The position numbers and the translations under genes were made by a program. Of a DNA stretch of 32,301 nucleotides, positions 28,090 to 32,301 are shown piece after piece (within the stretch, counting starts at the first letter, position 1; every line of letters begins with the position of its first letter). The stretch comes from a virus. The notes beneath the pieces are model-generated. The model searched no databases and was not told the DNA's origin. It worked only from the letters and a program-made list of their open reading frames with translations. Location: positions 1 through 32,301 of IMG/VR virus record IMGVR_UViG_3300025070_000139; one strand, 5' to 3'.

Positions 28090-30024
28090 ATGGCTGACAT
28101 TATTAGTAATGGTAAAGAAATAGGATTTGGCTCTGCTAACTGGAGTGGTAATCCTCGAGACGCTGGCTTTGGTGCTCCTTGGCCATTGTCTGTAGGCAAT
28201 AATGAGTTTTATCACAATTCTGAAGCAGGATTTGGGGACCCGTTTATATTACCCAAACTTCAGATTGACGACCCTAAAGACCCACCTCCTGGCAAATATC
28301 AAAACTTTAATAAATTAGCTGATAATGGTGGTGAGGTATTAAGAATATTTGGAAACCTTAATGGGATTAGAAGAATATTGCCTCAAGACCCAGGTGCAGG
28401 TGTGCCTTTAGGTCCATTTGTAGTTGAATTTTATCAATTAAACTTAGGATTGCAAGAAACTGGCGTAAAATATAAGGCAGAAAGTGCAATCCCAGGACTT
28501 AGACATAATTTATATTCAAATGCTGACCAGACAGAAATATTATTTACAACTCCTGTTTTACCTAAAGGCTCATATAACGTTAAAATAAGCCTGTCAGGTA
28601 GAGGTAGACCACAAGTTCTTAAGTCATATGAAGTTATAACTCGTCTTAGATTTGATAAAACAATGTCAATTAAGCATAATTTGCCTTCATATTGGGCACT
28701 TGGTGAGAAAACAGATGCATACGACGCAAGTGGAGGATATGTTAGAGGTCAAGATGGCACTTGGGATACACTAATTCAGTCAACAGGTGAGACTTTTAAT
28801 AATCTATACAATAATGCATACACAGTAGTTACACAAACTTATACTCAAGAAAGCTCTAATAACCTATATGTCGAAACATCATTAGGATTTAATCCAGATG
28901 GTGGACGTTTAATAATCGGAAACGATGAATATGAATACTCAGGTGTAGGTAGAGATGCAACAGACGCAAACGTCCACTTTATTACAGGTGTTAAAAAACT
29001 TGTAAGAGGCAGTGGATTACATCCAAGACAACATCCGATTGAAAATCCAAAGATTTATAGTGGACTTGACCAGAATTTATTGCACGATGATATATTTGAC
29101 CCTATTAAAAATGAATTAGCTCTTTCAGAAGGGCCTGATGAGCCTATAATCCAAACGGGTGAGAGAGTTTATTTAAGTCATTACAATTTCAGTGAGATTG
29201 ATTTATTTTACAAGTTGATTAATACAGGATTTCAAAATCCCGGTCTGATAGTTAAAGAAAACTTTGAAAGAGCATATAACAGAGTAGAATACGGCGAAAG
29301 AGAGCTAATGAGAGTTATCTTTGAGTATTTCTATGAGATGTTTAGACAATTAAACTTTAAACCTAAGTTCAGCGATACACAACTAACGTTTAGAAAATTC
29401 GCAGACGAGATAGGTAATCCTGATAGATGGGGACTTGGTAATGAGTGGAGAACAGATGAAAGTTATCGTCCTGATGTAGGTGTTTTATATGACATTGGTG
29501 ATAGTAGTTTAAATTGCTCACACGTCCAAAGACTTGTTAGAATATTTAATAAGTTTTATTTCATAAACAATAGATTTATAGATAATAGTGGCAATATGTC
29601 ATATCAGATTGACCACGTCGGATGCACATACTGGAATGGTATGGATGAAGACTTAGCTCAAAGCCTTGAAGATTTAAATGTTGCTGAGTTAAATGGTAAT
29701 GTTGAGATACTGCCTTGGATTATATTTAAAGACCACGGAGGACGTTTTCATATTAGATTTGAAAGAACGTGTTTTAGAGGATTTGATAGCTATTTAAATA
29801 GAGACTTCATTGAGTTTGATTTATTTATTAGTGGATTAAATGGTGAAGAAGAAATGGGCAATACACGTAATAGAAACTTAAACTTCTTAATAATGTGTGC
29901 TGCTAATATAGATGATAAAATTTATTTAAAACAAAGATGCGGAGATAATTTTGGGACTTATCTTAATCCTAATCAAAATCCGTCAAATGACACATATGTT
30001 CAAGTTACAAGGAATTTATTATGA
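28090..30024 (+). CDS. Large probable virion protein with N-terminal GFG repeats
   Basis: A 644-residue protein with CAGGAG upstream. The first 60 residues hold three spaced copies of a GFG motif (EIGFGSANWSG, AGFGAPWPLS, AGFGDPFILP), perhaps a docking segment used in multiple copies. Residues 80-190 are strand-rich and may be an IPT/TIG-type or Ig-like domain (VVEFYQLNLGLQETGVKYKA). Residues 200-330 are mixed, and 380-644 are alpha/beta with many Phe, Tyr and Asn (ELMRVIFEYFYEMFRQLNFK, FIEFDLFISGLNGEEEMGN). It follows the tail fibre block, so a tail-tip, fibre-adaptor or receptor-binding role is likely. I do not recognise the family. Confidence 0.6.
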   Translation: MADIISNGKEIGFGSANWSGNPRDAGFGAPWPLSVGNNEFYHNSEAGFGDPFILPKLQIDDPKDPPPGKYQNFNKLADNGGEVLRIFGNLNGIRRILPQDPGAGVPLGPFVVEFYQLNLGLQETGVKYKAESAIPGLRHNLYSNADQTEILFTTPVLPKGSYNVKISLSGRGRPQVLKSYEVITRLRFDKTMSIKHNLPSYWALGEKTDAYDASGGYVRGQDGTWDTLIQSTGETFNNLYNNAYTVVTQTYTQESSNNLYVETSLGFNPDGGRLIIGNDEYEYSGVGRDATDANVHFITGVKKLVRGSGLHPRQHPIENPKIYSGLDQNLLHDDIFDPIKNELALSEGPDEPIIQTGERVYLSHYNFSEIDLFYKLINTGFQNPGLIVKENFERAYNRVEYGERELMRVIFEYFYEMFRQLNFKPKFSDTQLTFRKFADEIGNPDRWGLGNEWRTDESYRPDVGVLYDIGDSSLNCSHVQRLVRIFNKFYFINNRFIDNSGNMSYQIDHVGCTYWNGMDEDLAQSLEDLNVAELNGNVEILPWIIFKDHGGRFHIRFERTCFRGFDSYLNRDFIEFDLFISGLNGEEEMGNTRNRNLNFLIMCAANIDDKIYLKQRCGDNFGTYLNPNQNPSNDTYVQVTRNLL

Positions 30025-30290
30025 GTGATACAAACAAAATGCCTTTGCAAAGTAAAAAGTTTTTAGCATACCTAATATCAGAAATAACAACTAAGGCAGG
30101 TATGTTTTATATGCTGATGCATTTACAATCAAAGTTAGACTATACTGAACTGGCTTTACTTATTGCAATGTTAGTATCATCTTCAGCCTTAACAGTAGGT
30201 TATGTTTTAGGTGTAGCAAGTCTCGAAAAATATTTAAGCAGTGCTGTAGAGATATTAGATAGGGACCACAATGAAAAAGAGAAAAAATAA
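30021..30290 (+). CDS. Small membrane protein (holin-like)
   Basis: An 89-residue protein whose ATG overlaps the previous stop as ATGA. Residues 43-65 are a clear membrane helix (ELALLIAMLVSSSALTVGYV). Residues 14-34 are weaker and may be a second one. The C-terminus is highly charged (EILDRDHNEKEKK). Size, hydrophobic helices and charged tail are holin-like, but many phage membrane proteins look the same and no endolysin is nearby. It overlaps the next gene by 20 bases. Confidence 0.65.
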   Translation: MSDTNKMPLQSKKFLAYLISEITTKAGMFYMLMHLQSKLDYTELALLIAMLVSSSALTVGYVLGVASLEKYLSSAVEILDRDHNEKEKK

Positions 30291-30558
30291 ACACTTAATA
30301 CCACCTTCAGAAATAGCTCCACCATCTTGGGACCCAAGTAAAACTATTAGAGACTGGGACCCTGAAAATATTAGGTTTGACGATGAACCGACTGTTTGTG
30401 CATTATGTAGTAATATTGATTGCATATGCACAATTCAAATTTGTCCTTGTGGTCAACAAGCACCTAAATGTAAATGGCCTTCAGACGCTTGTCCTTGTCC
30501 GATTTGCGATGAGTTGATGAAAAACTGTGAATGCAATATAACTATAAAGGATGAATAA
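30271..30558 (+). CDS. Cysteine-rich small protein (12 Cys), probable metal binder
   Basis: A 95-residue protein starting inside the previous gene (20-base overlap), with AGGGA upstream. The first 40 residues are Pro/Trp-rich (PPSEIAPPSWDPSKTIRDW). Cysteines lie at 43, 46, 51, 53, 58, 60, 67, 74, 76, 79, 86 and 88, in pairs CxxC, CxC, CPC, CPCPIC and CEC. This spacing suggests several zinc or iron-sulphur sites, or a disulphide-rich fold if exported; there is no signal peptide. A CxC then CPC arrangement also appears in the lipoprotein at 32100. The function is unknown. Its neighbour downstream, 5 bases on, is the nucleotide cyclase. Confidence 0.7.
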   Translation: MKKRKNKHLIPPSEIAPPSWDPSKTIRDWDPENIRFDDEPTVCALCSNIDCICTIQICPCGQQAPKCKWPSDACPCPICDELMKNCECNITIKDE

Positions 30559-30563
30559 ATAGT

Positions 30564-31433
30564 ATGACTGCACCATTACCAGAAAATATAATTGAGGCTA
30601 AAATAGCTATTGTATTGACTGATATAATAGGTAGCACAAAGTTTGTTCAGAAAAATGGTTCAAGAGCTGCTGCTCAATGGTTTGGCATACACGATAGATT
30701 TGTTATGAATTTGATTGCAAGACATAACGGTCAGCTTATAGATGCTTCTGATGGGCATTTAATGTATTTTGGTAATGTTGTAGAAGCATTAGAGTTTGGA
30801 TTTGAATATAAGAAAGTTTTAAGAACAAAAAAGTTTCCGTTTAGAAGCCGTGTAGGTATTCATTGGGACAAAATGTTAATAGTCAAATCTGCTGAACATA
30901 TGGTCAGAGCGGGTGGTAAACGGATAAACTTAGAAGGCATTGGTAAGAATGTTGCTGCAAGAACAATGTCATTATGTGGTCCAGAGCAAATCTTATTATC
31001 TAAATCAGCATTTATGCAATATAAAAAGTTTGGACATAGAAGCAATTACATACCTAAAAAAGCGCAAACTGCATTAGTAGGTCTTTATAAATTTAAAGGT
31101 ATATCAGAGCCAGAGCAACTATATGCTGCAGGATTAATAGAAGCACAATTACAACCTCCACCTGACAGTGAAAAAGCTAAGCGAATAGGTGGTAAGAAGA
31201 AAATAAGGACAAGACTAAGAAACAAGAATTTGCAAGAAAAGTTTTGGTGGTTTTTTTATAGATTAGGATTTCTTTCTTCAGCTTTCTGGCTATATATGTT
31301 ATGGCCTTTTCTATCTAATGAAAGAGCAAAACGCTTATGGGACGTAGATTATTTAATTTTCAGACCATTTGAGTGGATAAACACAGCAGCAATATTTATA
31401 TTTGAATTCGTGAAAGGATTTTTAAATGGTTGA
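30564..31433 (+). CDS. Class III adenylate/guanylate cyclase-like protein with C-terminal membrane anchor
   Basis: A 289-residue protein. Residues 10-150 match the class III cyclase catalytic domain, which makes 3',5'-cyclic nucleotides from NTPs as a dimer. VLTDIIGST carries metal-ligand D20, ASDGHLMYF carries D63, RVGIHWDKM is the central strand, and KNVAARTMSLCGPEQILLS carries transition-state N129 and R133. By hand alignment the base-selecting Lys is Ile59 and the Asp/Thr position is Asn122, so the substrate is not predictable; ATP, GTP or a pyrimidine nucleotide are possible. Residues 204-226 are strongly basic, followed by hydrophobic segments at 227-250 and about 263-287, so the catalytic domain probably faces the cytoplasm from the inner membrane. 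Its stop overlaps the next gene by 8 bases. Such an enzyme is unusual in a phage late region. Confidence 0.82.
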   Translation: MTAPLPENIIEAKIAIVLTDIIGSTKFVQKNGSRAAAQWFGIHDRFVMNLIARHNGQLIDASDGHLMYFGNVVEALEFGFEYKKVLRTKKFPFRSRVGIHWDKMLIVKSAEHMVRAGGKRINLEGIGKNVAARTMSLCGPEQILLSKSAFMQYKKFGHRSNYIPKKAQTALVGLYKFKGISEPEQLYAAGLIEAQLQPPPDSEKAKRIGGKKKIRTRLRNKNLQEKFWWFFYRLGFLSSAFWLYMLWPFLSNERAKRLWDVDYLIFRPFEWINTAAIFIFEFVKGFLNG

Positions 31434-31983: not shown

Positions 31984-32103
31984 ATGCATTTATTTGAAAA
32001 AAAATATCCACAAATTCATAAAACATTATATAATTATCAGAGAAAAAAATTAATCAACGTTATACACAAATATTACTTAAATGAAAGGTTTAAAACGTTA
32101 TGA
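31984..32103 (+). CDS. Small basic protein, 39 aa, coupled to the lipoprotein gene
   Basis: ATG 31984 has a strong GGGAGAG site 5 bases upstream and the frame ends in TGA 32101-32103, overlapping the next ATG as ATGA. The product is basic and aromatic (MHLFEKKYPQIHKTLYNYQR), with no signal peptide or membrane helix. The strong ribosome binding site and the coupled stop-start support a real gene. It may act mainly as a leader that sets lipoprotein translation. The function is unknown. Confidence 0.6.
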   Translation: MHLFEKKYPQIHKTLYNYQRKKLINVIHKYYLNERFKTL

Positions 32104-32301
32104 AGAAACTATTGAGTATTGTTCTTATTGTTATGTTATCTGTATTACCATTCGGATGTGATGATAAAGAAGAAAAAGAAGAATGTAAATGCGACAACTG
32201 TCCTTGTGAGCAAATCCGCGATGCAGAGCCAGAGATGGAGCAAGAAGCTGATATGGAGCAAGAAGAGCCAGAAGCTGATATGGGCCTGGTCGAAGAACTC
32301 C
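32100..32301 (+). CDS. Cys-rich acidic lipoprotein, N-terminal part (3' end outside window)
   Basis: 67 residues are visible. A signal peptide at 1-19 (MKKLLSIVLIVMLSVLPFG) ends at lipobox LPFGC, so C20 would be lipidated. D21 and D22 follow; D at +2 favours inner-membrane retention in enterobacteria, but this rule does not hold in all hosts. Next come CKCDNCPCEQ with Cys 29, 31, 34 and 36, then acidic repeats built on EADM and EQEEP. Phage lipoproteins of this size are often superinfection-exclusion factors or outer-membrane spanins. The cysteine cluster argues for a metal site or disulphides. The gene runs off the window, so length and class remain open. Confidence 0.75.
   Translation, partial: MKKLLSIVLIVMLSVLPFGCDDKEEKEECKCDNCPCEQIRDAEPEMEQEADMEQEEPEADMGLVEEL

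Follow-up and report, generated by a model that had tools for sequence, protein, structure and literature searches.

A phage-encoded class III nucleotidyl cyclase and its constant membrane-protein partner: a putative signalling cassette of uncultured bacterial viruses

Most of what is known about cyclic nucleotides as signals during phage infection concerns the bacterial side (CBASS, Pycsar, CRP), and a putative nucleotide cyclase gene on a viral contig raises the question of what use a phage would make of such an enzyme. The gene lies in the virus record IMGVR_UViG_3300025070_000139, which was analyzed over its full length of 32,301 bases and is referred to here as the window. Judging by its genes for a portal, a head protease, a major head protein and tail/baseplate proteins, the contig is that of a tailed phage. 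The portal is closest to those of SPO1-type phages, with only distant similarity to the nearest isolates, and a relationship search with the terminase returned one weak match. A tRNA scan of the window found none, and promoter and terminator scans gave a yield no greater than chance. The cyclase stands in a series of genes running in one direction: a large open reading frame (ORF) ending at 30024, c2, c12, the cyclase and c1, with ends that mostly overlap (Table 1).

Table 1. Positions of the cyclase gene, its catalytic codons and the adjacent genes in the window.
Feature	Position	Strand	Remarks
Class III nucleotidyl cyclase, 289 aa (289-codon ORF)	30564..31433	+	Catalytic domain at about residues 11-191; sequence, NCBIfam, PDB and fold matches
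D20 codon, first metal Asp	30621..30623	+	Invariant in filled viral rows
D60 codon, aligned with the Lys that specifies ATP in Ma1120	30741..30743	+	Ma1120 alignment; invariant in viral and cellular relatives
D63 codon, second metal Asp	30750..30752	+	Invariant in filled viral rows
N129 to R133 codons, transition-state Asn and Arg	30948..30962	+	N in 100/102, R in 102/102
C-terminal helices 223-288, probable membrane anchor	31230..31427	+	Model; hydrophobic stretch in 98/101 relatives; weak in the window protein
c1, partner gene, 166 aa	31426..31926	+	8-base overlap of its start with the cyclase stop; two TM helices and a 53-residue helix (79-131)
c2, 89-aa membrane protein	30021..30290	+	Frequent but not constant neighbour, 31/104 loci
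c12, Cys-rich 95-aa protein	30271..30558	+	Neighbour in 14/104 loci

The initial annotation of the window had described a phage-encoded class III cyclase with a membrane anchor, and the 289-codon ORF that it named is present. One of the profiles that it proposed for checking the assignment, the Pfam family Guanylate_cyc (PF00211), gives the window protein no score even at E 0.1 and scores 4 of 14 relatives weakly (best 0.0078). Rejection of the cyclase on Pfam alone is overturned by the NCBIfam, PDB and fold searches. The cyclase region of NCBIfam TIGR04510 matches the window protein at 4e-36, with 124.8 bits against a curated cut-off of 400 and over model positions 7-204 of 814; full-length membership of this family (mod_pep_cyc) was rejected, the score being below the cut-off and the rest of the model unmatched. 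A phmmer search of the PDB retrieves the cyclase Ma1120 (4.5e-8) and LipJ (4.3e-5). An AF2 monomer model built from 17 relatives is of moderate confidence (pLDDT 68.6, pTM 0.58, residues 102-126 poor), and a Foldseek comparison of this model with the PDB again ranks Ma1120 best (9.3e-11, target-normalised TM 0.78), in agreement with the fold expected by the initial annotation. The catalytic fold and sequence family, the two metal aspartates and the Asn/Arg pair all place the protein in class III: by homology and fold, the gene encodes a class III nucleotidyl cyclase. The proposed anchor is plausible and, on the model, probable. The modelled C-terminus forms two helices (223-251 and 267-288), and a hydrophobic stretch is found there in nearly all relatives, while the window protein itself is aromatic-rich at this end and of weak hydropathy (maximum 1.2).

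The viral alignment comprises 104 unique relatives, with 101-102 rows filled at the catalytic columns. Among filled rows, D20, D63 and R133 are invariant, as are K119 and K128, and N129 is kept in all but two; the four catalytic residues named by the initial annotation were correctly placed. Only 40 of the 181 columns of the catalytic domain reach at least 98% identity; for four named positions to lie by chance entirely within this conserved set, P is ~0.002. The cellular TIGR04510-type relatives (loci L035-L070) mostly carry Pro, Ala or Ser at the position of N129. Catalytic activity is predicted from the kept active site. Ma1120 from Mycobacterium avium and Rv1900c/LipJ are the best solved-structure matches by both sequence and fold, and have the metal Asp and the Arg in common with the phage proteins. 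The phage proteins differ from Ma1120 in keeping the Asn, in a metal hairpin shorter by one residue, in the probable C-terminal anchor, and in lacking the ATP-specifying Lys—invariant D60 stands at its position in viral and cellular relatives alike, a replacement that bears on the substrate and not on class III membership. In Ma1120, ATP is specified by Lys and Asp, Ala occupies the Asn position, and Lys-to-Glu is among the changes used to shift the preference from ATP towards GTP (PMC4215837); the recognition residues of the UTP-specific BcPycC include an Asp (PMC11224242). Since the base-recognition Lys is replaced by invariant D60, ATP does not suggest itself as the substrate. The Asp may instead point to GTP or UTP, and the predicted product is likelier to be cGMP or cUMP than cAMP.

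The initial annotation was right about the cyclase gene itself and passed over its partner. When the first 33 loci were compared, the gene following the cyclase, c1, recurred, and nearly all other neighbours differed. Scans of viral contigs returned 308 stretches with cyclase relatives and 315 with c1 relatives, of which the best 80 each were fetched. By profile search both genes are present in 186 of 189 viral loci, a set that counts some contigs twice and draws on the best 80 of ~300-500 matches per scan, so that rarer unpaired forms may escape. The three loci with one gene (L201, L106, L122) lack the other because the stretch ends there. The two genes share a strand in every paired locus. 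They mostly overlap or lie within <~100 bases of each other; in some loci they are 1.2-3.9 kb apart and both are still kept. The order is reversed in loci L132, L192 and L204, where c1 precedes the cyclase on the same strand. We conclude that c1 is an obligate partner of the viral cyclase, the two being almost always found together. No c1 was found beside the cellular cyclase relatives (0 of 36 loci); a search of 398 genomes from a single bacterial phylum, run without a positive control, did not find it either. Cyclase and c1 distances show a rank correlation of 0.56, which we do not take as proof of co-evolution, because linked core genes correlate as highly.

The surroundings of the pair vary. 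The cassette is preceded, in about half of the 104 unique loci, by genes for terminase and thymidylate synthase and followed by those for the portal, protease, scaffold and major head protein. In other loci it stands beside PhoH, nudix and helicase genes, and in the window it follows the tail genes. The setting, which the initial annotation called a virion/late region, is therefore not specifically late. A portal-based scan gave 503 relatives, of which the best 80 were fetched, and 59 of their contigs extend at least 2 kb upstream of the portal. The terminase-portal gap of this lineage contains both genes in 57 of the 59 and neither in two; in no case is one found alone. Here c1 and the terminase are conserved to about the same degree (mean distances of 0.23 and 0.24, respectively). 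In L245, one of the contigs without the pair, the terminase and portal proteins share ~95% identity with their counterparts in cassette-bearing phages. At positions 5780-5960 of L245, the start of the cyclase (about nine codons) is joined to the sequence just past c1, which suggests that both genes were lost jointly in one deletion. L245 looks like a clean natural two-gene deletion, and the cassette is accessory, lost as a unit.

To what extent is the pair related to known systems? In sequence, the closest family is TIGR04510, annotated as a "putative peptide modification system cyclase", which shares the D60-x-S-D63-G hairpin. Its cellular relatives come from Variovorax, Lysobacteraceae, Burkholderiales, Myxococcota and Acidobacteriota and are 28-39% identical to the phage protein. 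By contrast, the phage protein is unmatched outside the cyclase region, and these relatives mostly lack N129 and are never accompanied by c1. In a tree with 32 cellular relatives, all 102 viral cyclases group into a single clade with support of 100, obtained by a quick method and with long branches. Searches of 50,697 isolate/GenBank phage records gave no match to the window cyclase at E 10, none to a second member of the family at E 1, and one insignificant match to c1. Apart from one membrane-sensor-type protein from a phage and cyclases from giant viruses, a viral structure library contains no near relative. We found no earlier description of the cyclase–c1 pair in the open-licence literature, and it looks like an undescribed viral signalling cassette in many uncultured bacterial viruses.

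The view of the initial annotation that such cyclases are known mainly from cellular genomes holds with one caveat. Pelagiphages carry another phage-encoded class III cyclase, HTVC008M gp019 (PMC9599517), the main precedent: a protein of 611 aa with a long N-terminal region, located in a CsgG/CsgF curli cluster. It has no similarity to the present family detectable by blastp or with the family profile, and CsgG is absent from 29 cassette contigs; on both counts we rejected an identity with the curli-associated cyclase. Pycsar systems (PycC with PycTM or PycTIR) likewise consist of a cyclase with a partner gene, which in one branch encodes a membrane protein. The present pair differs in being carried by phages, in its weak scores with PycC profiles, and in a partner without a recognised cyclic-nucleotide-binding domain. 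The PADLOC PycC profiles match the window cyclase at 0.002-0.045, far more weakly than TIGR04510 does, and Pfam/profile and fold searches recognise no nucleotide-binding domain in c1. Cyclic-nucleotide receptors of family PF00027 do not exceed the cut-off in 13 cassette contigs of 105-376 kb, some possibly incomplete. Pycsar membership was rejected on these grounds, and the kinship with Pycsar cyclases suggested by the initial annotation is not supported.

The predicted structure of c1 combines a two-TM hairpin with a long helix that displays a strong heptad-like hydrophobic pattern. A fold search of the c1 model against the PDB found no match, so the fold itself is uninformative. Weak matches to SLATT (PF18142) occur in 12 of 18 c1 members (best 0.0032), the window protein scoring 13.9 bits against a cut-off of 26.5. 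Assignment of c1 to the SLATT two-TM effectors was rejected, with scores far below that cut-off.

A cyclase without a sensor of its own, probably membrane-bound and firmly tied to a membrane protein that carries a conserved helix, is most simply read as part of a signalling unit. Our preferred reading, held tentatively as possible rather than probable, is that cyclase and c1 form an accessory two-gene membrane signalling cassette, in which c1 is a dedicated regulator or sensor and the receptor belongs to the host. The C-terminal helices would hold the cyclase to the inner membrane, where it would work as the usual class III homodimer. In the same membrane, the hairpin of c1 would present the conserved helix to the cytoplasm, where it probably oligomerises and contacts the cyclase. 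A membrane change during infection would be relayed by this helix to the cyclase dimer, itself devoid of any other regulatory domain, and the cyclase would then make a cyclic nucleotide, one of the two favoured above sooner than cAMP. The product would act on host receptors, which are favoured because no PF00027 receptor exceeds the cut-off in the 13 large phage contigs, and the infected cell would be altered to the benefit of the phage, either in its physiology or through exclusion of other phages.

The main rival to a regulatory c1 reverses the direction of signalling: the cyclase would sense another phage or a late state of infection, and the cyclic nucleotide or the cyclase itself would open a pore formed by c1, as in a phage-borne, Pycsar-like exclusion or abortive system. 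We consider this unlikely. The pairing resembles Pycsar and is equally compatible with an effector role, c1 is short with two TM helices and weak SLATT matches, and the cassette, an accessory element, is lost as a whole; however, c1 has no recognisable nucleotide-binding domain, its SLATT scores fall far under the cut-off, and the PycC profiles match weakly. An improbable alternative is counter-defence, in which the receptors of host defences would be occupied or misdirected by a flood of cyclic nucleotide from the cyclase. The cassette is accessory and widespread, and anti-Pycsar strategies exist in phages (PMC9117128), but such receptors answer to nanomolar agonist (PMC11224242), which would require a product that is not an agonist, and the constant membrane partner is left unexplained. 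Still less probable is a catalytically silent cyclase fold serving as a scaffold or regulator for c1. The shortened metal hairpin and the lost Lys would fit such a role, yet the four catalytic residues are kept over a large divergence, whereas cellular relatives have mostly lost the Asn. The least probable reading makes c1 (and c2) holin-like proteins that time lysis and are tuned by the cyclase: both are membrane proteins, c1 with two TM helices, weak matches to a holin PHROG occur in 3 of 18 c1 members (0.022, other weak matches being to unknown PHROGs) and the cassette follows the tail genes in the window, but the reading is weakened by the natural deletion of the pair and by its varied contexts, as it elsewhere occupies the terminase-portal gap or lies near replication genes, and c2 is often either missing or encoded on the other strand.

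Across hundreds of phage contigs, several of them >200 kb, a cyclase is encoded together with its obligate membrane partner, in settings that range from head-gene clusters to replication regions. If active, the pair would constitute a widespread viral second-messenger system and would give class III cyclases a new type of regulator or effector. It is doubtful whether several unrelated phage lineages share a self-contained system of cyclase and membrane partner that protects or reprograms the host against competitors; if true, phages would possess an equivalent of Pycsar of their own, with an effector or sensor of a new kind. As a two-gene unit whose active site is defined and whose double deletion occurs in nature, the system is directly testable. 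The cassette contigs reach 376 kb, and six of them (L010, L014, L182, L185, L190 and L200), at 211-376 kb, are of jumbo-phage size.

Further genes near the cassette deserve mention. At 32100-32301 of the window, an acidic lipoprotein-like ORF begins and is cut by the contig end. The c2 gene has no family match and occurs in either orientation near the cassette. The c12 protein, encoded directly upstream of the cyclase, contains CxxC-type cysteine pairs.
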